IMG/VR virus record: IMGVR_UViG_3300005827_000060
Location: 1 to 26,382 of that record
Origin: a virus
Length of the DNA stretch: 26,382 nucleotides
Reading direction: 5' to 3' (one strand)
A program made the translations under genes and the position numbers. Positions 3,111 through 17,755 of the stretch are shown in pieces; position 1 is the first letter of the stretch; each line of letters begins with the position of its first letter. The notes under the pieces were generated by a model. It made no database searches. It was not told where the DNA came from and saw only the letters and a program-made list of their open reading frames with translations.

Positions 3111-4664
3111 CTAGCTGCTCGGGGCGATGTTGGCAATCACGCCCAGCGCAAACGTAGCGTAACATTTAAGCACCATTTCGGCATAAACGCCGGTTTCGCG
3201 CGCGCGTGTGATGATGGGCCACGGGATTTGATAGTAGTCCCGGCGGCATTGCACCTCCGCCGTTTGGGGCACGTTCGAGGACACATACTGCGCCGGTAAA
3301 TTCTCTGACCACGCCAACAGCGTGCCCGGCACCGCGTGCGGATGCACCTTGATCGGAATCACCGGCTGCCCAGTGCCAAACGGGTTGGGGTAAAGAATAC
3401 TCCCCACCCCGGCAATAATCTGCGGCGCTTCGCCATTGAGCTGGATGTTGTAGCGCAGCGTGCCGTTGGCCGTGCCGCCGAAAATTTTGGCAAGGATTGT
3501 CTGCATCTCCTGGGCATGAACGTAAATTTCTTCCGGCGACAAACGGTAGTTATCCCAAAAGCTGCGCAGCATGGTGTCAATCTCGGTGATTGACCCGCGC
3601 CCGCTAGCCGTCAACGTGGTGCCGGTGCCCGCCGTCCCAGTGGCCAGCGCCCGGTAATAGGCCAGCGATCCGCTTTTGAAGACGTGATACAGCAATCCGT
3701 CAAAGGCCGTCGCGTTTTTGGAATAATCCGAGCTCGGGCTGCTCACCGCGCTGTAAGCCTGGCCGGTGCCCGCCAGCGGCGCGGTGATGGCGTAGGAGTT
3801 GATAGTGGTGATTGCTTCCAGCTTCTCCGCCGCCGCTGTGCCCACATACCAGGCGTAGGCCACTGCGCCCTTGAGCGCCGTGACCGACATAAACAAAGTT
3901 TGCCCCAGCGTCACCGCCTGGGTCGCGTTGGCGCTCGTGATGCTGGAGCCACCGTTGAGCGTGTAGGTTTTGCCATCCATGCCGGTAATGGTCGCCTGCC
4001 GTTTAATGCCACCCGCCACCGTGGCCATCAGCCAGCCCTCGTAGGTGAGCGCGAACACATACACGCTATAGGTGGCGGTGGGCAACGTCGCCCCCGCGCC
4101 CGACGCGGATAGCACGGGCGTGGCAGGCGTGGCGAGGTCAACGCTCCCATTACCCCCGTATAGCGCATACTCCTCCAAAATCATGGTTTGCTGCAACAAG
4201 CGCGTGCCCGAGCTGGCCAACACATCCTCAAACCCGCTCCCCGCGCTCTCGGCCTCAAACGTCACATCCGCCTCCAGCCCAATCGTTTTATAGCTGGCAC
4301 TGCGGTCAGCAGTGGTGATGCTCATCCGCGCGCTGCGCTGGCCTTCTGGCACCCACGGCAGCGCCGGTAATTGGCTATTGCCCGCAATCGCGCTTACTTC
4401 CTTCCAGTTGGCCGCGGTGCCCGCGCCCGTGCTTTTCGTTTTGCGCGGGATGCGGTTGCGTATCGGCGTCAGCACCGGGTACAGATTTTTTGCCGGGGCT
4501 TCCAGGTCGTATGCCGTCAGCCCGCTCGCAATCGTCACCGTGCCGGTCGCCTTTTGCAAATCGTTCAGTGAGCCATTCTCGCCAACCTGCCCCACAATAC
4601 TCTTAACTGCACCAATCGTCTTTTCGGTCACGTCGGTGCCATCGGCGTTCAGTAAACGTGTCAT
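3111..4664 (-). CDS. Major capsid protein with inserted Ig-like domain
   Basis: This 517-residue protein starts at ATG 4664, behind a GGGAG ribosome site. Residues about 40-175 and 320-517 fit an HK97-type capsid protein, and gene order after the protease gene agrees. Residues about 178-318 are Thr/Ser/Ala-rich alternating strands that look like one or two Ig- or fibronectin-like modules inserted into the capsid fold, making the protein much longer than the usual 300-400 residues. Such insertions usually face outward and may bind surfaces. Capsid identity is inferred from context and overall pattern. Confidence 0.75.
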   Translation of the reverse strand: MTRLLNADGTDVTEKTIGAVKSIVGQVGENGSLNDLQKATGTVTIASGLTAYDLEAPAKNLYPVLTPIRNRIPRKTKSTGAGTAANWKEVSAIAGNSQLPALPWVPEGQRSARMSITTADRSASYKTIGLEADVTFEAESAGSGFEDVLASSGTRLLQQTMILEEYALYGGNGSVDLATPATPVLSASGAGATLPTATYSVYVFALTYEGWLMATVAGGIKRQATITGMDGKTYTLNGGSSITSANATQAVTLGQTLFMSVTALKGAVAYAWYVGTAAAEKLEAITTINSYAITAPLAGTGQAYSAVSSPSSDYSKNATAFDGLLYHVFKSGSLAYYRALATGTAGTGTTLTASGRGSITEIDTMLRSFWDNYRLSPEEIYVHAQEMQTILAKIFGGTANGTLRYNIQLNGEAPQIIAGVGSILYPNPFGTGQPVIPIKVHPHAVPGTLLAWSENLPAQYVSSNVPQTAEVQCRRDYYQIPWPIITRARETGVYAEMVLKCYATFALGVIANIAPSS

Positions 4665-4685: not shown

Positions 4686-5981
4686 TTAGCCCAGCGCCGC
4701 TAATTCGCGCTCGGCGGTTTCCAGTTGTTTGCGATAGTTGTTGGCCACGGCCGGGTTTGGCTCAGTGGAAGATTTGCGCAGCAAGTCGCTCACCTTAGCT
4801 TGCGCAGCGGATCGCCGCTGCGCCAGGTCGCTCGCTCCCCCTGCGCCTTGCCCTGCGATGGTCTTATCTGTGCCGCGCAGATGCGGGCCACCTGGCGCAG
4901 GCTGGCGCTCGATGTTGGCCACGCGCGCGTCCAAACCCTTAAGTAGTGTTTCCAGCCCGCCGAGCTTGGGGTCAAGCGCCTTCACCAGGTCGGCTACGTG
5001 CGCGGCCTGGGCCACATCGCCGCCGCCATAAGCCGCCATGATTTTGGCCGCCACCTCATCTCCTGCCCCGGCCAACATGCCCGCGAGCGCCTTGATGACG
5101 TTGTGCATGGCCGCGCTGTTAGATAGGCTAAAGGTGCGCCCCGCCTTGTTCAGCGCGGCCCAGCCTTGGCCCTCGCCGAGATACTTAAACGCCTTGCCGC
5201 CGCGCTTGGCCAGGTTGCCGGGCTTGGCCGCCGCCGTCACCGCGTCGGCGATTTCCGGTGCTTCATCCGGTGCGTCCATCATTTCACTCGCGCCGGGTTT
5301 GTAGTTGGCCGCCTGCTGCACCAGGGTAATCGCCTGGGTGTACATCTCGGCCAACTCCATCTCCCCCGCCAGCTCCGCCGAATTGCGCAACTCTTGGAGG
5401 ATGACCACCGCCTTGCTGGGTTCGGCGGCCTTGCGAACAAAATCTAAAAACTGGGCTTCGTCTAACATAGACTCTCCCTTCCAAAATAAGAACCGCGCGT
5501 CGGGGTGGGCCGGGCGGTCAACTAGGGAAATTTCCGTCAGGCGCAGGGCTTTTATAACCCGCACCCATATACCGTTGATTTGCTCTACAACGGCCTTCAG
5601 CACCTTGCCGCCGAGACTAAAGCCCTGGTAGACCTTGGCCTTAACTTTGTCCCAGGCGTCGTCATCCTGCACAAACACTTTTAAATACAGGGCGTTGTGC
5701 AGGGGCTTGCCGTCGGCTCCGGTGACCTCGTCTACAACGCGCGCTTCGAGCGCCTTGCCCACCGCGCTGAGCTCGTGCATTTCGCGGATGTTGGCCCAGC
5801 GCATGTAATCCGCGAGCGCCGCGCGCAGCGCCCCCGGCTCGATAATGTCGGCCTCATACCGCTGGCCCTCCCATATCCCGCCCTGAGAATCCGGGGTAGG
5901 GGCCGAGCCAATACCCTCCACAATGCGCTGCTCGCTTTTCGCAAACGGAGAGAAGAAGGTAAGGGTGGGAGTGAATGTCAT
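4686..5981 (-). CDS. Prohead protease fused to scaffold-like region
   Basis: I place the start at ATG 5981 instead of a TTG two codons upstream. The 431-residue protein has an N-terminal S78/U35-type prohead protease of about 165 residues. A His in MHELSAVGKA and a Ser in GFSLGGKV stand at the expected catalytic places, followed by the conserved LTEISLVDRPAHPDA segment. The remaining 250 residues are helical, Ala-rich and charged, with a coiled-coil-like end, as in scaffolds. It would guide capsid assembly and then be cut during maturation. A terminator hairpin lies directly before the start. Confidence 0.75.
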   Translation of the reverse strand: MTFTPTLTFFSPFAKSEQRIVEGIGSAPTPDSQGGIWEGQRYEADIIEPGALRAALADYMRWANIREMHELSAVGKALEARVVDEVTGADGKPLHNALYLKVFVQDDDAWDKVKAKVYQGFSLGGKVLKAVVEQINGIWVRVIKALRLTEISLVDRPAHPDARFLFWKGESMLDEAQFLDFVRKAAEPSKAVVILQELRNSAELAGEMELAEMYTQAITLVQQAANYKPGASEMMDAPDEAPEIADAVTAAAKPGNLAKRGGKAFKYLGEGQGWAALNKAGRTFSLSNSAAMHNVIKALAGMLAGAGDEVAAKIMAAYGGGDVAQAAHVADLVKALDPKLGGLETLLKGLDARVANIERQPAPGGPHLRGTDKTIAGQGAGGASDLAQRRSAAQAKVSDLLRKSSTEPNPAVANNYRKQLETAERELAALG

Positions 5982-5984
5982 AAA

Positions 5985-6033
5985 CAAAAAAGACCGATGC
6001 CGCGCAAGCCCAAAGGCTTGCGCGGCATCGGTC
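5985..6033 (-). terminator. Terminator hairpin abutting the protease gene start (copy A)
   Basis: A perfect 19 bp stem (5992-6010 with 6015-6033) with a 4-base loop is followed on the minus strand by TTTTTTG. The protease ATG lies only about 10 bases after the stem, and no Shine-Dalgarno site is visible between them. It can end transcripts from the genes upstream, or act as a regulated attenuator for the protease operon. A second copy exists at 11421-11468. Confidence 0.75.
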
Positions 6034-6037
6034 GGAT

Positions 6038-6094
6038 GGTAGATGCCCTGCCCGACGGTTAGGCCGGGCGCGGTTTTCAGTTGCGCGTATTATA
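6038..6094 (-). promoter_or_regulatory. Conserved leader element and -10 box (copy A)
   Basis: A 35-base block (6038-6072) is identical to one at 11475-11509. On the minus strand it contains GCCCG-loop-CGGGC and then GGGCATC. GGCATC is complementary to GATGCC in the 5' arm of the terminator stem that follows, so it could form an anti-terminator. A TATAAT sequence at 6094-6089 would start the RNA just upstream, but no good -35 box is seen. This is the layout of a leader RNA control element. The ligand or protein that acts on it is unknown. Confidence 0.5.
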
Positions 6095-6105
6095 CGCCGT
6101 TTGCG

Positions 6106-6543
6106 CTAGCCCGCTTGGTTCACCCGCGTCTCGATAGCGGTGGCCACATTTTGCAGCGCCGTCTCAAAGTATTGCTCGGTCTGCGCTAAGTTGGCTTCCA
6201 TCACCTCGGCGTCGGTTTGCCAGCGCCCCCGGTGAACAGCCGCTTGCATCTCCGAGTCCTGTACGTATGGCCCGTAGGGCGTCGGGTTGGCCAAACTCGC
6301 CTCAAACCCCGATTCCGCCACTTGGTCAAACTCCGGCACGGCGGCGTGCCAGGCGCGGCCCAGCGTGAAGGTGCGCGTGTACTCACTTTCTGGCGGCTCG
6401 GCGGGATACAGAGATATAGGATCAACCATCGCCAACAGCGCCGCCTCTGCCGCCTTTTTCAACTCTGGCGCGGCAATTTCTGGAAACTCTTGCAGCGCCG
6501 CAACCAGCGCATTTAACCCGGAGACTTCGACACTGGCGCTCAT
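6106..6543 (-). CDS. HK97 gp10-like head-tail protein
   Basis: I choose ATG 6543, which overlaps the portal-gene stop as ATGA, over an upstream start that would run 54 bases into the portal gene. The 145-residue product begins with SVEVSGLNALVAALQEF, typical of the HK97 gp10-like family of neck or tail-completion proteins, followed by helical segments. Lying directly after the portal-MuF gene and before the protease is somewhat unusual for this family, which normally sits after the connector. A different morphogenesis role is possible. Confidence 0.6.
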   Translation of the reverse strand: MSASVEVSGLNALVAALQEFPEIAAPELKKAAEAALLAMVDPISLYPAEPPESEYTRTFTLGRAWHAAVPEFDQVAESGFEASLANPTPYGPYVQDSEMQAAVHRGRWQTDAEVMEANLAQTEQYFETALQNVATAIETRVNQAG

Positions 6544-8735
6544 AGGTTTCTCATCTCCTCCGGCGTTTTCACCACCGGCGTTATCCCGCACCGGCAACGC
6601 GGGTGCATGGATGGGCGGTGTTGCTCATCGTCCAGCGGATACACATTGCCGTCAAGCGGTCGGCAAATTGGGCACACCTTCGAGTCACGCGCCGTGCGAA
6701 ACCGATAGCCCTTCACAGTCTCGCTGGCCTTCCATGCGGTGATGTTGCCCTCCGCAAACAGTCCAGTCACCTCGTCCACCGCCGCCACATCCGGGCGCGG
6801 CCCTTGCCAAACGCGCGCCACCCGATTGATTAAATCTGGCATCGTGCCGCCGGTGCTGATCCAGTCGGCCACAATCTCCTGCGTTTGTTGCTGGCTCACC
6901 TCGCTGGCCTTATCCGCGAACGCCTCCGCGCGCGCCCGCGCCACGCGCAACACCGCCGGATTCACCTTGTCCCAATCCACCCCAATGGTGAGCTGGGACG
7001 CGCCCTCCTGAGCGGCTGCGCTGGCCACGTCGTCAAAGAATGGCAAAAGCAGCTGAATAATCTTGGGCGCTTCCTCGCCGAAGGCCGCGCTCAGGGCCAG
7101 TTGGATCGCCTGCGGGTCTGGCCCCGCTTTTTTGATAACCGCCTTAATGCGTTCGGCCTGCTCACCGTAGGCTTGGGCAAAAATCTTTTGCGCCGCCTGC
7201 TCGCGCTTCAGCCGCGTTTCCCAATCCGGCTCTGGCCCCCAGTCGGCCTTAGCCAGCGCCACCCCCGGCGCGGCAGCCCCAAACGGAAAGCCGCCGGACG
7301 CGGGCGGGGCAGCGGGTGGGGTCGGCGGTGGCCCATCGAGTTGGTGGCCAAATTCCAGCGTGCGCACCTCGGCGGGACTCACCACATAATTACGCAGGTA
7401 AATCTCGTTTTCCTGCGCCTTCTGCAGCGCGTCGTCGCGCTCGCCATAATTCCACTGCGCCTCCAGCCCCCAAAACCGACTCTGTTTGCGCCGCGTCGGG
7501 CGGCCCGGCAAGCTCACCGCCGCCCCCCGTTGCATGTCCGCAGACAAGCCATACTCCAGCGAGAGCGGGTCAAACACCGTGTCTTTTAGCCACTTGGTCA
7601 GCGGGCGCAGGCCGCGCCGCTCGTTGATGGCCTCCTGCATTTCGGAAGTCGCGCGGTTGGCGTCGTCGGTAAAGCCCAGCTCGGTGGGCGGCGTCGCGTA
7701 GGCCGCGCACGTCACCCGCAGCATCCAGTAGTCGAGCGTGGTGTCATAGCTAAACTGGCGCAGCTCTTTCACATCCGGCTTCGCCCACGGCCAAAAGTGA
7801 ATCCGCCGCCGGTTGGCGTCATTACCCTGCAAAGTGGCGTTAAAGTTATCCTCAAACGCGCTCACCTGGTCTGGACTAACATCGCTCGGCGGGCTAACAA
7901 TCATGTCGGGGATGTTGCCCTCGGTGAAGTAGCTCAAGTCAAAGGTCTGTTTGCGCAGCGCCTGGTTGACCCGCAAAATAATCCACTCGGTGGGGGGAAA
8001 CCCGTAGGGCGTGAAGGCCCGCGTCCAGCGCGGGTTGTAAACGAGCTGGTGGGTGCCGTAGACCGGGAATTGCTCGTCGGGCGCGTCGGTGTCGGGGCGT
8101 TTGTACTCGCTGAAGGGGTAGCCATAGAGCACCTGCTGATAGGCCAGCGTGCGCCCGCGATTATCCAACAGCGGCTTGATGGTGGCCCCGTCCACCACTT
8201 CCAAATGCAGCAAGCGCCCCGCCACGTCCGGGTGTTTGTACAGCGTCATAGCGTCCACAGTGAACAGGTCATACAACAACATTCCCAGCCACACCGGGAA
8301 ATAATTTAGCCCATCCGGTTGCGACCAAAAATCGGCCAGCTCGTCACAATCCGCCTGCCGCGCGCTCTGCTGTTTTTTATCCTTGGCCACAAACGACAAC
8401 TCCAGCCCTTGCAGCTCCTCAATGCGGCACGCAATGGCCAGCGCCGCCACATCATACAGCGCCGCCAAATTGCGCAGCTGCTCAAACGGCGTCAAACCCG
8501 GCTGCTCCCGGCGCGGGCTGGGCGTTAGGTTCGCGCTCACCGGATATTGATACTGGCGCGGCCCCTGCGTTTGTTCTGGCGAATCCGGCGCGGTGCGCGG
8601 GGCCAGGGGCGCGCCCGGCCCAAAGTCGCGCCCAAATAGCACATCTACAGCGCGGCCCACGCGCGCGCCCATCGCGCTCAGGCGCGCCGCCCACGGGGTC
8701 ATATCGCGGGTTTCAACTCCGGCAGTGTTTGGCAT
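6540..8735 (-). CDS. Portal protein fused to MuF-like domain
   Basis: This 731-residue protein starts at ATG 8735. Residues about 60-430 form a phage portal protein, the dodecameric ring at the capsid vertex through which DNA is pumped. The C-terminal part, from about residue 590, is a Mu F-like head morphogenesis domain. It ends in the typical Cys/His pattern CPIC-PLDG and HPRCRCGITPVV. Portal and MuF are usually neighbouring genes, so a single fused frame is notable though not unique. The linker around residue 460 is Pro/Ala/Gly rich. It follows the large terminase gene directly and overlaps the gp10-like gene by 4 bp. Confidence 0.85.
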   Translation of the reverse strand: MPNTAGVETRDMTPWAARLSAMGARVGRAVDVLFGRDFGPGAPLAPRTAPDSPEQTQGPRQYQYPVSANLTPSPRREQPGLTPFEQLRNLAALYDVAALAIACRIEELQGLELSFVAKDKKQQSARQADCDELADFWSQPDGLNYFPVWLGMLLYDLFTVDAMTLYKHPDVAGRLLHLEVVDGATIKPLLDNRGRTLAYQQVLYGYPFSEYKRPDTDAPDEQFPVYGTHQLVYNPRWTRAFTPYGFPPTEWIILRVNQALRKQTFDLSYFTEGNIPDMIVSPPSDVSPDQVSAFEDNFNATLQGNDANRRRIHFWPWAKPDVKELRQFSYDTTLDYWMLRVTCAAYATPPTELGFTDDANRATSEMQEAINERRGLRPLTKWLKDTVFDPLSLEYGLSADMQRGAAVSLPGRPTRRKQSRFWGLEAQWNYGERDDALQKAQENEIYLRNYVVSPAEVRTLEFGHQLDGPPPTPPAAPPASGGFPFGAAAPGVALAKADWGPEPDWETRLKREQAAQKIFAQAYGEQAERIKAVIKKAGPDPQAIQLALSAAFGEEAPKIIQLLLPFFDDVASAAAQEGASQLTIGVDWDKVNPAVLRVARARAEAFADKASEVSQQQTQEIVADWISTGGTMPDLINRVARVWQGPRPDVAAVDEVTGLFAEGNITAWKASETVKGYRFRTARDSKVCPICRPLDGNVYPLDDEQHRPSMHPRCRCGITPVVKTPEEMRNL

Positions 8736-8742
8736 TGGTTAC

Positions 8743-10203
8743 TTATCCTTTCTTCATGGCCGCCGCTTTTTTGCTGTAGTAGTCGGCCACTTTACTGGTG
8801 ACGCCGCTGGCTGACACCGCCAACGCCAACGCCCAAAATTTATCGGCGTGGTGTTTCTCGTTGGCCTCGGTGTCGAAAACGGCGTTTTTAGCATCGGTTA
8901 GTTTTTTCTTGATGCTATGCACTTGGTAACTCAACGCGCGGTCCAGTGGGAGCGGCACGCGCCCGCGCTGCATTTCGATTTTCAACCCCACCGCCCACAC
9001 TTCCTTGGTGGCGTTGGTGAAGTTCACACCTTCGGCCCGGCTGTGGAACTTGCCGTGTATCTGCTCCGCTAACTGCATCCCCATGCCGTTGCGGTCAATG
9101 AATAGTTTGGTGATGGGCAGTGTTTCCAGGGCCTTGTTCACCACCGCAAACTGGCTATCAAAGGGCGCGTTGGCCAAGCTAATGCCCAACCGATAGGGCA
9201 ACCGATTCGCCTGGCTCTTGCCCACCACCACAATCTCAGAGAGGTCGTGCGTGCGGCCTACGTCAAAGCCTGCCGCGAGTGCGCCCTCGACCTTGCCCTC
9301 TTTGATCGCCCCCGCCAGCGCCTCAATCGCACCCAGCGCAGTGTCTACGCTGTTGGCCTGCCAGTAAAGCAGCTGCCCGTCCTGCGCGTCGAGCTGGTTT
9401 TTTTTGATTTCATCCCATGTAATCCACGCGCTGCTCTCATCCAGCCAGGCACACTCATACTCCTGCTGGAAGTCCTCCAACAGGAGATTTTCAAAAATTT
9501 CCACCAAGCGCGGCGTGCCAAATCGTAACACGCGCTCCTCGGTGAGCATGAGGGGCGCTAACTTCAGTGCCGCGTTGATGTTGCGGCACAGGCTCCGCAC
9601 ACACCACCACGGGATGTATTGGCGCGTGTACCCTGGATACTTCTTCAGCGTCTGGGTTGCTATCTCCCAAAACAACCCGCTTGCCCCCAGCACCGATGAT
9701 CCCATCCGCAAGCGCCCGCCGCGTGTGATCACGGGGATGGCCGCCGTGTAAATCTCCCGTTCGCGCGGGTAGTGCGCGAACTCATCTAAAACGAGATTGG
9801 CCCGTGCCTTGCCGCGTGGGGGCGTGCAAGGGTGGCTAATCAGGCGGCTGCCGTTTTCTAATTCCAGCTCCAGCCGATTGTCTATGATGAGCCGGGGCCG
9901 CACCTCGCGGTCCAACGCCTCAATGGCCTGCCGCGCATAGCGGATTTTCTCAGTGGCCTCTTCCAGGTTGAGGCTCACAAAGATGGTGGTGGAGCGCGGC
10001 ACCAAGCGCGCCTCCGCCACGCCCTCAAACGCGGCCAGCGAGCTCCAGCCACCCTGGCGCGTCTTGCGCGCTTGCGCCAGTAAAGACTCGTTGTTAAGGT
10101 GTGCGAGCTGAAACGGCTCCCACACCGCCGCCGGGTCGCCGGTGGCGGTGGGCAAGTCGAGGTACTCGACCAAAAACCATGCCCGCTGGGTGAGCTCGCT
10201 CAT
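8743..10203 (-). CDS. terL: Terminase large subunit
   Basis: This 486-residue protein starts at ATG 10203, overlapping the stop of the small-subunit candidate as ATGA. The ATPase part shows a variant Walker A around residues 44-55 (ARKTRQGGWSS) and Walker B LVLDEF at 137-142. The RNase H-like nuclease part has candidate metal-binding Asp residues at 314 (AGFDVGRTHD), 370 (LFIDRNGMG) and 454 (HHADKFWALALA). It drives ATP-dependent DNA packaging through the portal and cuts the genome. The Walker A loop departs from the classic GKT form, as it does in several terminase families. Confidence 0.9.
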   Translation of the reverse strand: MSELTQRAWFLVEYLDLPTATGDPAAVWEPFQLAHLNNESLLAQARKTRQGGWSSLAAFEGVAEARLVPRSTTIFVSLNLEEATEKIRYARQAIEALDREVRPRLIIDNRLELELENGSRLISHPCTPPRGKARANLVLDEFAHYPREREIYTAAIPVITRGGRLRMGSSVLGASGLFWEIATQTLKKYPGYTRQYIPWWCVRSLCRNINAALKLAPLMLTEERVLRFGTPRLVEIFENLLLEDFQQEYECAWLDESSAWITWDEIKKNQLDAQDGQLLYWQANSVDTALGAIEALAGAIKEGKVEGALAAGFDVGRTHDLSEIVVVGKSQANRLPYRLGISLANAPFDSQFAVVNKALETLPITKLFIDRNGMGMQLAEQIHGKFHSRAEGVNFTNATKEVWAVGLKIEMQRGRVPLPLDRALSYQVHSIKKKLTDAKNAVFDTEANEKHHADKFWALALAVSASGVTSKVADYYSKKAAAMKKG

Positions 10204-10892
10204 TCATTGGCCGCCGTCTCAGGTGCAGCATCGGCAGCAACGGCGAGGCTCCCGCCGGGCATGTCTGCGGCCATATCGCTATCCTCGGCCTCACCGCCAT
10301 CGCCCATCCGCTGGGCCAGCGCCAGGGCCGGGGCCACTTGTGCCCACCGCGCCTGGCGCTTGGCCTCGGCGGCCTCGGGCGTGATGACGGTCACCTCGCC
10401 GTCGTGCGTAAGCCGGATGTTTTGACCCTCGCCCGTGAATCTGTGAATGAGTGCCAGGTGCTTATCGCCGCCCTTCAGGGATTCAATAAACGCTTTCTCT
10501 ACCAGCGCCCGCACCCACAAGCGACCAGTGGAGTCGCCCGGCACCACTTCCAACAACATCTCGTTGGTGACTTGCTGGAATATGCGCGATCCGGGTTTGG
10601 GGCCTGCCGGGTTGCCGCTTTGACCCGGCTTAAACCCAAAGGTGTTGCCTGCCACGAATCGGCCTTTGGCTCCACGCCCATCTCCGTCGTTGGGTGCTTC
10701 ACCGTTGCTAATCCGTTGCTGGGCAACGGTGGGATCGGGCGCGGGGGTATCGGCGGGCGGCTTGGCCTGGGGCTTGGCGGCCTTACTTGCGCTGTGTTTG
10801 GGCTTGGCGCTGGGTGGTCGCTTTGCCTTCGGCTTTTGAGCCTGGGGCTTGGCGGCCTTTACCTTGGCGCTTGGCTTTTGCTTGGTTGCCAT
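10200..10892 (-). CDS. Terminase small subunit candidate (DUF5681-type)
   Basis: I place the start at ATG 10892. The 230-residue protein has a Lys/Ala/Pro-rich basic N-terminus of about 70 residues. The segment GRFVAGNTFGFKPGQSGNP follows, typical of DUF5681 proteins that precede large terminase genes. A helical C-terminal half completes it. It probably recognises phage DNA and delivers it to the large subunit, whose start overlaps its stop by 4 bp. The repeated AKPQAKP-like basic stretch could bind DNA nonspecifically. The function comes from synteny and the DUF5681-like motif. Confidence 0.7.
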   Translation of the reverse strand: MATKQKPSAKVKAAKPQAQKPKAKRPPSAKPKHSASKAAKPQAKPPADTPAPDPTVAQQRISNGEAPNDGDGRGAKGRFVAGNTFGFKPGQSGNPAGPKPGSRIFQQVTNEMLLEVVPGDSTGRLWVRALVEKAFIESLKGGDKHLALIHRFTGEGQNIRLTHDGEVTVITPEAAEAKRQARWAQVAPALALAQRMGDGGEAEDSDMAADMPGGSLAVAADAAPETAANE

Positions 10893-10998
10893 TGCTCGAC
10901 TCTTCCAAATAGGGCTTGAGACCAGCCTCCTCCAACCGTTGCAGGATGACAGCCACAAACAACGGCTCGCGCTCCAGTCCGTAACAGCGGCGGCCCAT
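10783..10998 (-). pseudogene. Remnant of N4/N6 DNA methylase C-terminus
   Basis: From ATG 10998 (or an in-frame ATG at 11028) a frame begins with MGRRCYGLEREPLFVAVI and continues LQRLEEAGLKPYLEE. This is very like the last 40 residues of phage DNA-modification methylases (N6_N4_Mtase family), which often sit just upstream of terminase genes. No catalytic DPPY or SAM motif remains upstream, where a membrane-protein gene in another frame occupies the space. After residue 45 the frame overlaps the terminase small gene and turns into basic low-complexity sequence. I read it as a decayed methylase tail, possibly still translated. Confidence 0.5.
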
Positions 10999-11002
10999 AA
11001 TC

Positions 11003-11419
11003 TCAGCGGGCCAGCACCCAGAACGCAATCGCCAAGGCGAGGATCAGCATAGAGGCTATCAGCCCCACCGGCACCACCACATCCCACCCGGAGCGCGTAG
11101 CTGATTGCGCCTGTTGTTGGGCAATGATCTGCACTTGCTGTTTGGTGAGCTCGCCGTCGCGCTTGAGATACGTTATCTCATGCTTCATTTCGGCGATTTG
11201 TGTTTTAGCGTCCTCCGATTGCCGGAGTAGGTTGTTGACCGCTTGCTCGATATTCTTGGCAGTCTCGGCGCGCTCGTTGGCGCTCCGTTCAGCTTGCTCC
11301 AGCAAAATCCGCAACCCGACAATTTGAGCAGACTGATTGAGCAGGTCGGTGTACACGGTGCTGGCAAACCGCGCGGGGTCACTGAGGTCGGGCTTGGTGG
11401 GGGGGGTGGTGTTGGTCAT
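11003..11419 (-). CDS. Coiled-coil, tail-anchored membrane protein
   Basis: I choose ATG 11419 because the stretch upstream is a terminator hairpin. The 138-residue protein has an N-terminal Thr/Pro segment, a long charged coiled coil at about residues 35-105, and one C-terminal membrane helix at about 114-136 ending in Arg. The topology is a cytoplasmic coiled coil anchored by its tail. It could be a spanin or holin-like lysis protein or a membrane regulator, but no motif decides. An 8-C tract lies within codons 5-7. The leader matches the one before the protease gene. Confidence 0.6.
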   Translation of the reverse strand: MTNTTPPTKPDLSDPARFASTVYTDLLNQSAQIVGLRILLEQAERSANERAETAKNIEQAVNNLLRQSEDAKTQIAEMKHEITYLKRDGELTKQQVQIIAQQQAQSATRSGWDVVVPVGLIASMLILALAIAFWVLAR

Positions 11420-11420
11420 A

Positions 11421-11468
11421 AATAAAAACCGATGCCACCCTGCGCGGCAAACGCAGGGTGGCATCGGT
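11421..11468 (-). terminator. Terminator hairpin abutting the coiled-coil gene start (copy B)
   Basis: A perfect 17 bp stem (11428-11444 with 11452-11468) with a 7-base loop is followed on the minus strand by TTTTTATTT and then the gene's ATG. The base of the stem (ACCGATGCC/GGCATCGGT) is the same as in copy A. The upper stem has a different sequence but is still fully paired, which is covariation and supports a functional RNA structure. Confidence 0.75.
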
Positions 11469-11474
11469 CTGATT

Positions 11475-11509
11475 GGTAGATGCCCTGCCCGACGGTTAGG
11501 CCGGGCGCG
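11475..11509 (-). promoter_or_regulatory. Conserved leader element (copy B)
   Basis: These 35 bases are identical to 6038-6072 and have the same relation to a terminator and a start codon. They contain a small GCCCG/CGGGC hairpin and the GGGCATC strand that can compete with the terminator. TTGACG on the minus strand at about 11541-11536 could be a -35 box, but the matching -10 is poor. No known riboswitch family was recognised. Confidence 0.5.
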
Positions 11510-12401: not shown

Positions 12402-12411
12402 AATGGGTGGG

Positions 12412-12439
12412 ATTATACAACGCGCCCTCTGCATTGCAA
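12412..12439 (-). promoter_or_regulatory. Minus-strand promoter for the Thr/Pro-rich gene
   Basis: A -35 box TTGCAA (12439-12434) and a perfect -10 box TATAAT (12417-12412) are 16 bases apart. The start would fall near 12405, just before the terminator-like hairpin. The promoter touches the first GTGAC of the repeat array at 12442, so proteins bound to the array could affect it. Confidence 0.55.
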
Positions 12440-12441
12440 GC

Positions 12442-12652
12442 GTGACTGATCCAGGCGCGTGACCCACCGGCAAGTCACAGTCTGAGCGCGGTCACATCGG
12501 CCCGTGACCGCACCGGCAGCGGGCGGCGATGATCTATCACGGCCTCGCCTTCCCCTGTGACCCACCGTCAGGTCACGCGCTGCACAGCGTCACGCCCGAA
12601 CGTGACCGCCCAGGAGTTGCTTATAGCCTGGTCAGTCACACCAGCCTGTGAC
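12442..12652. repeat. GTGAC/GTCAC array 1
   Basis: Eleven copies of GTGAC or GTCAC occur in 211 bases: 12442, 12459, 12474, 12491, 12504, 12557, 12572, 12589, 12602, 12635 and 12648. Chance would give about half a copy. The spacings 15-17-13 recur: the four sites from 12459 to 12504 repeat exactly 98 bases later from 12557 to 12602, while the bases between them vary. No plausible gene lies here. Related segments occur at 24864-25129 and, inverted, at 26155-26311. Confidence 0.85.
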
Positions 12653-12818
12653 GCTACCGGCATCAGCCAGCGGTACTCTGTTACACCACAATTAAATGAC
12701 CGCGCCGGGAGTGCTAGTTGTGCCCGGCGCGGATAAAACAAACAAAAAATTTTAAGTTTTTTGTGTCTTGGGGATGGGCCGCTATTTAATACGGCGCTGG
12801 AGTTATTCTATGCTGATG
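12653..12818. other. AT-rich spacer with inverted repeats inside the repeat block
   Basis: This segment separates two clusters of the pentamer array. A 10 bp perfect hairpin (12700-12709 with 12723-12732, 13-base loop) is followed by an AT-rich inverted repeat, ACAAAAAA and TTTTTTGT at 12742-12749 and 12757-12764. No gene is supported. An easily melted AT-rich stretch beside short iterated sites resembles the layout of iteron-type origins. Confidence 0.5.
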
Positions 12819-13158
12819 GTCACGCTTGTCAATGTGACGAACCGGCCCGCGCTTGGCGCTGCGCCGTTACAGCTCCAGGGTGTTGAGAGCGAGCACGGTC
12901 ACAGTGACGGCCTGCGTGCGTTGCTGCCGGACGCGGTCACACCCGGCGGGAACATCCCCAGCAGTGGAGATGCTGGCCACAGCCACGGGCGGCGCTGGGT
13001 ACCGGTGGGCAACGGCGCGGGCAGCGATGTTCCATGCCTATCGTGGGCATCCCCGCCCGCGCAGATGCAGGCCCGCATGGTGGCCACGCTGCCCGCAGTG
13101 ATGGGCGCGCACACCTGGCTACATCCACAAGGGTGGCGGGGCTTCAGCGCAGCGGCCG
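12819..13158. repeat. Second part of array 1 and gene-free sequence
   Basis: GTGAC/GTCAC occur at 12819, 12834, 12898, 12904, 12936. At 12898-12908 two form the palindrome GTCACAGTGAC, also present at 24864-24874. The stretch 12834-12957 is homologous to 25061-25145. From about 12960 to 13158 I see only GC-rich sequence without a credible gene. Long open frames across it have no protein-like character. Confidence 0.65.
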
Positions 13159-13262: not shown

Positions 13263-13604
13263 TTACTCCAGTAATCTCGCGGGGGCGCACGGCACCACCC
13301 ACGCGCCTGGGCCACACGACCCTTGCAAAGACGGGTTATCGGCGTGGTAATAGTTGGCCGTGCGGTAATTGCGTGGCACAGGCATCTCCCCTTCGCACTT
13401 CACACAAACAACCACGCCGCCCGATAGATCGCTCAGGAACAAAGCCCCTTCGGGCAATTCCTGAAAAGTTATAACGCCCCGGTCTCGGTGCATGACACCA
13501 CAATACGGGCAATAGAGACCATTCAGGCGCTTGACCAAATAATCCCGCTGGCACCGCTGGCACAGTTCGCCCTCGGCCTGGGGGTAGGGTTCGCTTTTAT
13601 CCAT
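13263..13604 (-). CDS. Zinc-ribbon protein
   Basis: I place the start at ATG 13604, preceded by AAAGGACTCTGAC. An upstream start would lack a ribosome site. The 113-residue protein has a clear zinc ribbon at its N-terminus (CQRCQRDY, then YCPYCG about 15 residues on) and a further CVKCEG pair near residue 68. It probably binds metal and perhaps nucleic acid. No enzyme motif is seen. It lies downstream of the recombination-protein gene, separated by a terminator, and upstream of the HAD fragment. Confidence 0.6.
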   Translation of the reverse strand: MDKSEPYPQAEGELCQRCQRDYLVKRLNGLYCPYCGVMHRDRGVITFQELPEGALFLSDLSGGVVVCVKCEGEMPVPRNYRTANYYHADNPSLQGSCGPGAWVVPCAPARLLE

Positions 13605-13687: not shown

Positions 13688-14890
13688 CTAAAACGGAGTT
13701 TCAGCGTCGTCAGCGGGTCGCGTCTCAACTGGGCCGCCCCCAGCGTCGGCCTTGTTGGGGTGATGCTCCGCCGCGTGTGTGGCCAACGCCTCAAACGCTG
13801 GCTCCAGGTTGGCGGCGGTAATCACAGAGAAGCCGACCGCGGGCAGAGACCACTGAACTTTGGCCATGTCGGGCTTGCCGCCTTTGATCTGATAGTAGGT
13901 AAATCGCTTGGCCAACTCAACGCACTGCGCGGCGAAGTCTTTGGACGGGCATTTTATATCGGCGGGCTTTTTGCCCCGGCCATTGCCATCGGCCTCACCA
14001 TTGCCGTTGCCACCATTGCCGTTTGCGGCCTTGGCCTGGGTTGCGGGCTTATCGGCGGGCGTGCTGGTGGCCGCTGGCGCGGGCTGCGCCACCACCGTGA
14101 ACGCCCCCTCTACAATATCCAAGTCCTCAATGTCCTGGGTGTAGAACTCTGAAGCGTTGGCACCGATCAGTGTGGCCGCAATGAGTGCGCGCTTGACCGC
14201 CATCTTTTGAATGGTGTTCACCTGATCCGCGATGTCAGGGTTGGGCACGCGGTAAACCAGCGTGTCAATTTCCCAGGCATCCATCTCGCTCCCCCCGCGC
14301 GTTTTCTTCATCACCGCCTTGGCCGTGCCCGCGTCAATGGCATCTTGGAATTGCCGCCAGTAAGCCGCTGGCTTTCCATACTTGCCAGTGGTCTCCGCCT
14401 TTTCGATGGCAAAAGCGAACTCGGCGATTTTTCCGCCGCGCGTTTTGAGCGTGGCCTTATCTGTGCCAGCGGGTAAATCCTGCTCACCCACCCAGCGATA
14501 GCGATACTTCGACTCCATGCTATTGCAGCTGCCCTCACCCGCCGCGATTAGGGTGCTGCCCCGGTAGAGCGAAACCCGATAGCGATAGTAAAAGAACGGC
14601 TCCCCCCCGTGCCCTGCGCCCATCCAGTCCTCGACCTTATCCACAATCACCGGGTCGGGCGTGAAGCCAAACAATGAACACAATTTCTCGGCACCGGGCT
14701 TGAGCAGCGTCGGCTTATCCGTGCCAGGTATGCACCCAAAATCTTTGTCTGGCTTCATAAGCTTTTGGGTGAACTCAACGAGGGCGTTGTAACGCATGAT
14801 GCTGTCTTGCAGCGAAAGAACCGGCATAAAGGCGGTGCTGGTAACAGGCACCAGCGCGGTGCTGGGGGTTGGCGCAATTTGGTCGGTCAT
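13688..14890 (-). CDS. Putative single-strand annealing / recombination protein
   Basis: This 400-residue protein starts at ATG 14890. Residues about 28-75 (MRYNALVEFTQKLMKPDKD and a GTDKPTLLKPGAEKL stretch) and a later segment (NTIQKMAVKRALIAATLIG, then SEFYTQDIEDL) form a pattern I associate with a widespread phage protein group near Rad52/Sak/Erf-like annealing proteins. The last 130 residues hold a Gly/Asn-rich linker and a second small domain. It could pair ssDNA during phage replication. The exact family is uncertain, and a phage ssDNA-binding protein is the alternative. Confidence 0.5.
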   Translation of the reverse strand: MTDQIAPTPSTALVPVTSTAFMPVLSLQDSIMRYNALVEFTQKLMKPDKDFGCIPGTDKPTLLKPGAEKLCSLFGFTPDPVIVDKVEDWMGAGHGGEPFFYYRYRVSLYRGSTLIAAGEGSCNSMESKYRYRWVGEQDLPAGTDKATLKTRGGKIAEFAFAIEKAETTGKYGKPAAYWRQFQDAIDAGTAKAVMKKTRGGSEMDAWEIDTLVYRVPNPDIADQVNTIQKMAVKRALIAATLIGANASEFYTQDIEDLDIVEGAFTVVAQPAPAATSTPADKPATQAKAANGNGGNGNGEADGNGRGKKPADIKCPSKDFAAQCVELAKRFTYYQIKGGKPDMAKVQWSLPAVGFSVITAANLEPAFEALATHAAEHHPNKADAGGGPVETRPADDAETPF

Positions 14891-16213: not shown

Positions 16214-16275
16214 AGTATAGCCCGTATTTTGGTTTTGTCAATACAGTTGACAAAACCAAAATACGGGTGTATCTT
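16214..16275. promoter_or_regulatory. Divergent promoters in a 21+21 bp perfect palindrome
   Basis: Arms 16221-16241 and 16247-16267 are perfect inverted repeats around 5 bases. Each arm supplies a -35 TTGACA. Rightward, TATCTT (16270-16275) is 17 bases from TTGACA, and ATG 16282 follows after 6 bases. Leftward, TATACT (16219-16214) is 16 bases from TTGACA, and an ATG follows after 4 bases. Both transcripts would be leaderless or nearly so. The palindrome is a likely operator for a regulator controlling both directions. Confidence 0.75.
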
Positions 16276-16533: not shown

Positions 16534-16616
16534 TTCGGCTGTTCGCATTACCCCAACGCGCTAGCAATCGGCCAAGATAAACAGCGCGTCGGGCTGAACC
16601 TTAACAACCGAATTTA

Positions 16617-16673
16617 GGTGGCGAGGAATGGATTTGAACCATCAACCAAGGGCTTATGAGTCCCCTGCTCTGA
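16617..16673 (-). other. tRNA-Met 3' half: probable phage att core
   Basis: On the minus strand the sequence runs from AGAGCAGGGGACTCATAAG through a T-arm with loop TTCAAAT to an acceptor 3' strand CCTCGCC plus A. This is the 3' two-thirds of an elongator tRNA-Met (anticodon CAT at 16658-16656). The 5' acceptor strand GGCGAGG and the D-stem partner are missing upstream, so it is not a whole tRNA. The integrase gene ends about 50 bases away. Such fragments are phage copies of the 3' end of the target tRNA gene. An inverted repeat at 16684-16700 may be an integrase arm site. Confidence 0.75.
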
Positions 16674-16720
16674 TGCCCCCACAGGCCTATAAAATAGGCC
16701 GCTGGCTGGGTTCAGAGAGA

Positions 16721-17755
16721 TTATTCTACCTCCAAATCCGGCAAACTTACATGCCGCGAGTGTGCCCGCTTCAGCTCCTTATCTGCAAAGATGCCATAGT
16801 GCGCGTTAGTCACATCCACGCTACTGTGGCCCAGCAGTTGGGAAACGTGCGCGAGCGAGGCCCCATCCATCAGCATCCTGCGCGCCGCGCCATGCCGCCA
16901 ATTGTGCGGGTTCCACCCCGCAACAACCCCAGCGGCCTTAGCCAATCGCTTTAGCACCTGGTAAATGCCAGAGGTGCGCAGTCCCCCCTTCAACCCCACG
17001 AACACCGCATCCCCCCGGCCTTTTGGCCGCACCTTTAGCCAAGCCTCCATCGCCTCCACAGCGGCGGGAGCCAGGTACACCACCCTCTCCCTCTCGCCTT
17101 TCTCGCGCACAATCGCCCGGCCCCGCTTCAGCATCAAGTCGCCGACTCTCAGCCCAGCGGCCCCGGCACACCGGCACGCCGTTGACGCCAAAAAAAACAC
17201 CAGCGCCAAATCACGCGGCGACGCCCGCGCGGCCTGCATCATCCGCGCCAGGTCATCATCTGCAATCCCCTTACAGCCCACCTTCGGCAACTTCGGCAAC
17301 TCCAGCCGCAGTGCCGGGTTGTTGCTCAAAACCCCCTCCTCACAAAGCCACCTAAACAACCGCCGCGCTGCGCGGCAATAGCCGTGCAGCGTCCAGGGTG
17401 AAAGTCCCCCCTCGACCACCCCGCGCGTGGGGTGGGTAGTGTAACGCGCTTGTTTGTCTTGCAAGTCCGCTCGCCAGCGCCGCAAGGCACAAGTGTCCAC
17501 ACTTCCCACCTCCACATCTCCCAAAAACTCCACCAGCGAGTTGAGCCTGCGCTCATACCAGCGCCGGGTGGTCTCTGCCTTCGCCCCCATCAGCGAAAGC
17601 AAAAAACCAGCAACCGCACAACGGATTTTCACCTCGGCCTCCCCGTGGCCGCTCCACCGCTTTAAACGCCAAAGCGGCCACGACTCTAGTTTGAAAGAGT
17701 CGCGCCGCTTCTCTAGTGCGCGTTCCCCCGGTTCCGTTGCGGCGATGGCTTGCAC
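16721..17755 (-). CDS. int: Tyrosine recombinase / integrase
   Basis: This 344-residue protein starts at GTG 17755. The N-terminal core-binding domain covers about residues 45-140. The catalytic domain has Arg195 (ACRCAGAAGLRVGDL), a Lys near 219, His284-x-x-Arg287 (HNWRHGAARR), His310 (LLGHSSVDVT) and the nucleophile Tyr320 (NAHYGIFA). It would insert the phage DNA into a tRNA-Met gene whose 3' half lies just after its stop. It is read towards the att site and divergent from the rightward early genes. Confidence 0.9.
   Translation of the reverse strand: MQAIAATEPGERALEKRRDSFKLESWPLWRLKRWSGHGEAEVKIRCAVAGFLLSLMGAKAETTRRWYERRLNSLVEFLGDVEVGSVDTCALRRWRADLQDKQARYTTHPTRGVVEGGLSPWTLHGYCRAARRLFRWLCEEGVLSNNPALRLELPKLPKVGCKGIADDDLARMMQAARASPRDLALVFFLASTACRCAGAAGLRVGDLMLKRGRAIVREKGERERVVYLAPAAVEAMEAWLKVRPKGRGDAVFVGLKGGLRTSGIYQVLKRLAKAAGVVAGWNPHNWRHGAARRMLMDGASLAHVSQLLGHSSVDVTNAHYGIFADKELKRAHSRHVSLPDLEVE

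Follow-up and report, generated by a model that had tools for sequence, protein, structure and literature searches.

The window analyzed here is the whole of IMG/VR virus record IMGVR_UViG_3300005827_000060 (26,382 bases). Its left half is taken up by a late region that reads leftward, on the minus strand, and encodes a 138-amino-acid (aa) open reading frame (ORF), a terminase large subunit, a portal-MuF fusion, a tail-completion-like protein, a prohead protease, a 517-aa protein, and a head-tail adaptor. At two sites in this region, A and B, both on the minus strand, a duplicated leader is followed by a hairpin with the features of an intrinsic terminator, set directly against a start codon. 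Downstream of site A lies the head maturation (prohead) protease (4686-5981, minus strand), identified by PHROGs phrog_80 (9.5e-19) and by PF04586 over its cut-off. Site B precedes the 138-aa ORF (11003-11419, minus strand), which starts the terminase-portal cluster ahead of terminase and for which family searches gave no convincing family. The terminase large subunit (8743-10203) and the portal-MuF fusion protein (6540-8735), both on the minus strand, were assigned by family searches; the 517-aa protein (ORF 3111-4664) is conserved, belongs to a PHROG of unknown function and, judged by position alone, would be the capsid protein.

The leader block is identical at the two sites and spans 36 nucleotides (nt; block A, 6072-6037; block B, 11509-11474; minus strand), where a sequence-only reading of this DNA had counted 35 identical bases. 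It is the sole direct repeat of that length at 100% identity in the repeat listing of the window. Beyond the blocks and hairpins the flanks of A and B are unrelated, and the linker of 3-4 nt between block and hairpin varies between them. The terminator hairpin of A (6033-5992, minus strand) has 19 pairs and the loop UUUG, with a U-tract (5991-5982) that extends into the ATG; that of B (11469-11427, minus strand) has 19 pairs, or 20 with one further closing pair, and a U-rich stretch (11426-11420) that likewise extends into the ATG. With a GC-rich stem followed by a U-tract, both are predicted intrinsic (Rho-independent) terminators. The start codon follows the hairpin by 10 nt at A (ATG 5981, protease) and by 7 nt at B (ATG 11419, 138-aa ORF), in keeping with the claim that each site lies just ahead of a start codon; the U-rich tail abuts it, and no Shine-Dalgarno 4-mer is found between hairpin and ATG at either site.

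When the two hairpins are compared pair by pair, 11 pairs are kept, 2 are changed on one side, 6 are changed on both, and 0 are broken. The lower ten pairs, which the sequence-only reading had called identical, are so except for one G-C that has become G-U. Among the upper nine, both bases are changed in six, one base in one, and neither in two, so that all two-sided changes fall here and the description of an upper stem that differs yet stays paired is borne out. Leader and hairpin together fold far better than shuffled sequences (z -8.1 for A, -7.1 for B), mainly because of the terminator; the leader without it, in which a small hairpin 1 is predicted (A, 6050-6069, seven pairs including one G-U, loop CUAACC; B, 11487-11506; minus strand), reaches z -1.7 and -2.1, respectively. 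Identical outer parts around a replaced inner stem appear to fit a plain recent copy less well than they fit a constrained block and lower stem combined with a free upper stem.

In a protease tree the window groups with the related contigs L004, L011, and L114, within a clade that fills 17 rows, or 16 contigs once the duplicate L124 is discounted; L120 and L014, being truncated, were excluded. A terminator-like hairpin stands before the protease start in 12 of the 17 rows (the window, L004, L011, L012, L116, L017, L118, L119, L121, L123, L124, and L128), mostly with unrelated leader sequences; a recount over labelled rows gave 12 of 21, with 3 changes. L121 and L123 were scored as hairpin-bearing from folding, the automatic scans missing both, and L017 and L121 have a weak T-run. 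The gap from terminator to start codon is 10-16 nt in most cases; in L128, where the hairpin precedes a longer protease ORF, it is 23 nt and is followed by a Shine-Dalgarno sequence. The position of the terminator ahead of the protease start is conserved across the clade, while the leader sequence differs.

By automatic scan, a terminator precedes the start in 12 of all 131 protease matches examined, most of them distant. At other gene starts the same scan gave portal 0/23, adaptor 0/18, ORF 1598 0/14, tail completion 0/13, tail tube 0/12, TerS-like 0/1, TerL 1/14, and capsid 3/41. Across the clade (16 contigs, one per row), 18 terminators were counted, and in 12 of them an ORF no shorter than 130 aa begins with an ATG 4-24 nt downstream, versus 0 of 33 in 56 unrelated contigs, which are IMG/VR stretches matching a short pattern rather than a drawn sample (Fisher 1e-7).

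A long leader block is common only to L016 (with L116) and L119, where 38 of 39 positions just before the terminator are identical in a locus that is 73% identical overall; over 13 pairs compared, their hairpins differ by two two-sided and three one-sided changes. The pattern within the window, a block kept while the hairpin varies, is thus seen again in the comparison of two phages, there with another sequence. The reverse is seen in L011, in which two terminators (7576-7606 and 13739-13769) have a common 18-nt hairpin core (17/18) and different lower stems.

Promoter scores, computed with assumed values for the sigma70 promoter frequencies, were higher upstream of 14 terminators than at 74 control gene starts (means 8.9 vs 5.0, p 7e-5). 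The best promoter-like scores belong to L012 (TTGACA-17-TATACT), L017, and L121, and near-consensus promoters lie about 40-230 nt before the terminator in L012, L017, L118, and L121. Those of L012 and L017 are at approximately 62-92 and 7407-7436, upstream of the protease leader, and in L012 an inverted repeat, TGACAAT-CAT-ATTGTCA, spans the -35 region. Between promoter and terminator, L121 carries a complete tRNA-Met(CAT) (5751-5825) ahead of the protease gene, and L017 a long leader (approximately 7490-7620) with a far-reaching helix, GGGGGTGTGT...ACACACCCC, and no Rfam match.

At the head of the operon the window holds a third predicted terminator, t1 (12401-12362, minus strand), which has 16 pairs and ends 28 nt short of the start codon (ATG 12333) of a 177-aa ORF. 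Together with A and B it makes up the three minus-strand hairpins of at least 16 pairs in 1-13.3 kb, each of them ahead of a start codon. Upstream of all three, in a stretch without recognized genes, lie the two best promoter-like matches, P1 (12832-12805; TTGACA-16-TAGAAT, 11/12) and P2 (12439-12412; TTGCAA-16-TATAAT, 10/12), both of them minus-strand matches to consensus only that point into the late region. The late genes would then be reachable only by read-through, unless unrecognized promoters lie downstream, and read-through of the terminators by late transcription seems required.

Between P1 and t1 is a structured stretch of about 400 nt (12402-12798, minus strand; z -7.15 for the predicted fold), which has no ORF of at least 60 aa wholly inside it on the minus strand, one 71-aa TTG ORF overlapping its end. 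Within it are GTGAC/GTCAC repeats, seen again near 24.9 and 26.2 kb and facing either way with respect to neighboring genes; these may be DNA-binding sites, which would fold as RNA anyway. The dyads form clusters at 12442-12940, 24864-25129, and 26155-26311 (16, 10, and 7 words), partly 76-82% alike, and are possibly sites for a ParB-like protein or another DNA-binding protein.

We favor, as somewhat the more probable course, that A and B are intrinsic terminators acting as transcriptional gates, insulating or attenuating, on the late structural genes and passed by antitermination. Strong hairpins with U-tracts, their place at start codons, their positional conservation in relatives, and the maintained pairing are what this reading builds on, and the arrangement suggests that the head genes are not expressed until the polymerase is enabled to run through the stop signals. 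Polymerases from the sigma70-like promoters at about 12.4-12.8 kb, or straying from elsewhere in the prophage, would stop at t1, B, or A, so that the lysogen would not express its head genes. During lytic growth, an antitermination mechanism encoded by the phage would carry the polymerase past all three terminators. The 36-nt block with its hairpin, together with the identical lower stem, would be the common cis-acting part, either recognized by an antitermination factor or serving as a leader that delays the folding of the terminator, and the upper stem would need only to pair, its sequence thus being free to change. The sequence-only reading had proposed a phage antitermination site here, a proposal that gains indirectly from the terminator position kept in the protease clade and from a late operon with three strong terminators. 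A more tentative reading, in our estimate rather unlikely, is that a group of uncultured phages possesses a new system of processive antitermination, in which a phage-specific cis RNA or an unrecognized factor takes the polymerase past all start-abutting terminators; the cis RNA would be the 36-nt block or the structured leader after P1, its sequence evolving fast and its place fixed. The literature searches, which cover open-licence papers, listed no account of this element.

Several observations weigh against such gating. Five of the 17 clade rows (L114, L018, L126, L127, and L129) have no hairpin, and in 61 distant protease phages 4 of 16 terminators lie as near to such starts (clade vs these, p 0.02). 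The promoter-like matches in 1-13.3 kb number 4, no excess over the shuffle mean of 3.5, and A and B are without a good sigma70 promoter (scores 3.4 and 7.0; controls mean 5.0, sd 1.8). The tRNA of L121 and the small ORFs of others, between promoter and terminator, fit a stand-alone small transcript. Finally, family searches recognized no antitermination gene in the window, among them no AlpA-like gene and no Q homolog, and turned up no protein of the BglG/LicT RAT type, in which a protein-bound RNA hairpin overlaps the terminator. Phages of the lambda type keep Q just upstream of the late promoter; a 113-aa zinc-ribbon-like ORF (13263-13604), for which no relative was found in IMG/VR, lies just upstream of the late promoter-like sites here, and by its position only we would guess at a dedicated antiterminator protein.

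Three other explanations were weighed against transcriptional gating. The sequence-only reading had seen the design of a riboswitch in the ability of GGCATC in the block to pair with GATGCC in the 5' arm of the terminator (A, 6047-6042 with 6029-6024; B, 11484-11479 with 11465-11460; minus strand), and a self-contained attenuator or riboswitch would choose, by ligand or by leader, between this helix and the terminator. The pairing does form in silico: during elongation of the transcript, the GGCAUC/GAUGCC helix and hairpin 1 appear at a probability of 0.98-1.0 (for the helix, above 0.98 in transcripts ending before the terminator 3' arm), both being lost and the helix displaced once that arm emerges. 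The segments the helix would use are exactly those identical between A and B. This predicted folding path is compatible with what an attenuator would look like. Against it, the full terminator is far more stable than the alternative in silico, and the complementarity is no better than chance. The duplex energy of the 45 nt upstream with the 5' arm, compared with shuffled upstream sequence, gave p 0.27 for A and 0.22 for B, and 12 of the 14 leaders combined, site B and L119 being excluded as repeats of site A and L016, gave p 0.84 (Fisher); L123 alone reached p 0.016. By a hand estimate, the chance of an exact 6-nt match in some 40 x 14 positions is about 0.14. The pairing may matter in this phage, with shuffles lending it no support. 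The sequence-only reading had named lack of conserved pairing in homologs as a finding that would tell against its interpretation, and such a lack is seen for the anti-terminator, not for the terminator. Hairpin 1 as a general feature of the leaders was rejected as weak, since its signal at 45 nt (mean z -1.27, p 0.034) is lost at 70 nt (-0.29, p 0.44).

Nor did the leader resemble a known RNA class, in agreement with the failure of the sequence-only reading to recognize one: Rfam gave 0 matches at the gathering threshold in the window and 10 relatives, and a permissive search with site A only returned sub-threshold chance matches, none credible. An exact 20-nt piece of the block is absent from IMG/VR, and none of 396 genomes contained a 28-nt piece, even with up to 3 mismatches allowed. 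A search of IMG/VR for GGCATCTACCA with GATGCC returned 56 stretches, none with the leader-terminator layout of the window in the printed sequences; GGCATC recurred within 60 nt in one. Conservation of an aptamer across homologous leaders was not found, relatives having unrelated leaders at the same place. With the Rfam null and the absence of the block elsewhere, this lends no support to a metabolite riboswitch or a known RNA class, and we consider a self-contained attenuator or riboswitch very improbable.

Less improbable, if still unlikely, is a stand-alone small transcript, a moron-like cassette or phage small RNA with its own promoter and terminator between two late genes, the head genes otherwise being read through from upstream. 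The near-consensus promoters of the four relatives named above, the tRNA-Met of L121, small ORFs in L004, L005, and L123, and the clade members without a hairpin all speak for it, and the moron layout of an optional cassette with promoter, cargo, and terminator fits L121, L123, and L005. It accounts less well for a terminator that stays against the start codon, mostly at 10-16 nt, while the cargo varies or is absent, for L016, where the space beyond the stop codon of the preceding gene is under 100 nt and has no good promoter, and for A and B, at which no promoter of their own was recognized. A leaderless promoter overlapping the U-tract was dropped, no -10 box being seen there by eye. We hold it quite unlikely that the hairpin is instead an element of mRNA processing, stability, or translation, protecting the 5' end, being cut by RNase III, or shaping a ribosome site without Shine-Dalgarno sequence. 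Its position against the start codon would suit such a role, as would the scarcity of Shine-Dalgarno-like 4-mers at the protease starts (1 of 10, inside the hairpin stem, vs 26 of 55 control starts, p 0.037), but the U run directly after the stem, kept in most leaders and weaker in L017 and L121, is not needed for it, and a hairpin of 13-19 pairs so close would be expected to hinder ribosomes rather than help them.

The phage is probably temperate, given an integrase gene (16721-17755) and, in the right part of the window, ParB- and partition-like genes and two DNA methyltransferases. Adjoining the integrase gene, 16616-16685 resembles a tRNA 3' half with the anticodon-loop CTCATAA and, read by eye, is a possible attachment site; ARAGORN found no whole tRNA in the window, this stretch included. 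A perfect 21-bp inverted repeat with a 5-nt spacer (16221-16267), containing TTGTCAA...TTGACAA, precedes a rightward ORF and is operator-like. The terminase has relatives at 54-63% identity in metagenome-assembled genomes and in a single isolate; the labels of several read Chloroflexi or Anaerolineae, and those of others differ.

To our knowledge, terminator-gated late operons have been worked out in few phages or elements, mostly of laboratory bacteria. A terminator kept at the protease start throughout a clade of uncultured phages would suggest that control of head genes by antitermination is wider and its cis-acting part quickly replaceable. The sites also lend themselves to tests with short, cheap constructs and indicate where new antitermination factors might be sought.

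In phage lambda the late promoter PR' is closely followed by a terminator, tR', that late transcription must pass, and there is one such terminator and one Q site. The window is alike in having a terminator closely after a late promoter-like site, to be passed for the late genes, and differs in having three terminators, two with the same leader, and no Q homolog seen. Like lambda, cluster K mycobacteriophages offer a partial likeness in their SAS and ESAS, which are repeated elements with inverted repeats and a variable spacer just before start codons (PMC3203893). However, SAS is a 13-bp sequence, GGGATAGGAGCCC, in the non-structural half of the genome, and the inverted repeats of ESAS are conserved, with no U-tract mentioned in the part of that paper used here (PMC3203893); no 13-bp start-associated repeat with AGGA just before the start lies upstream of A or B. 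The put RNA of HK022 is also a short hairpin RNA, present in two copies per phage genome, that acts on terminators; as described in the sections drawn upon, it spans about 70 nt, forms two stem-loops after the early promoters, and acts on distant terminators, whereas in the window one small hairpin abuts each terminator (PMC9378689). The structured, processively acting RNA that put and the canT leader of Tn916 represent after a promoter may have a counterpart in the predicted fold at 12402-12798.

In Tn916, according to the excerpted account, the insulating terminator T1 overlaps the start of the first gene, and several terminators in one long operon are passed from one promoter thanks to the leader RNA canT (PMC11658703). 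A terminator at a gene start and several along one operon are found in the window as well, although T1 insulates against host promoters and the 400-nt leader of the window is predicted only (PMC11658703). In the AlpA regulon of Pseudomonas aeruginosa, from the portion of the source consulted, which also describes Q, two operons have a common short element and intrinsic terminators immediately before the first gene (PMC7969949). One predicted terminator there starts 26 bp after the start site, and t1 likewise begins shortly after P2 (PMC7969949). The AlpA element lies between -35 and -10, whereas the block of the window stands immediately ahead of the terminator and is able to fold into RNA hairpins, and the AlpA gene has no recognized counterpart in the window (PMC7969949). 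The layout typical of Q and AlpA, with a promoter, a terminator close downstream, and the late genes beyond, is seen in P2 and t1 and also in relatives, the promoters being consensus matches only. The element is real, conserved in position, and distinct from known riboswitches; gating of this kind is already known from other systems, and the closest parallels of the mechanism that we favor would be AlpA and Tn916.

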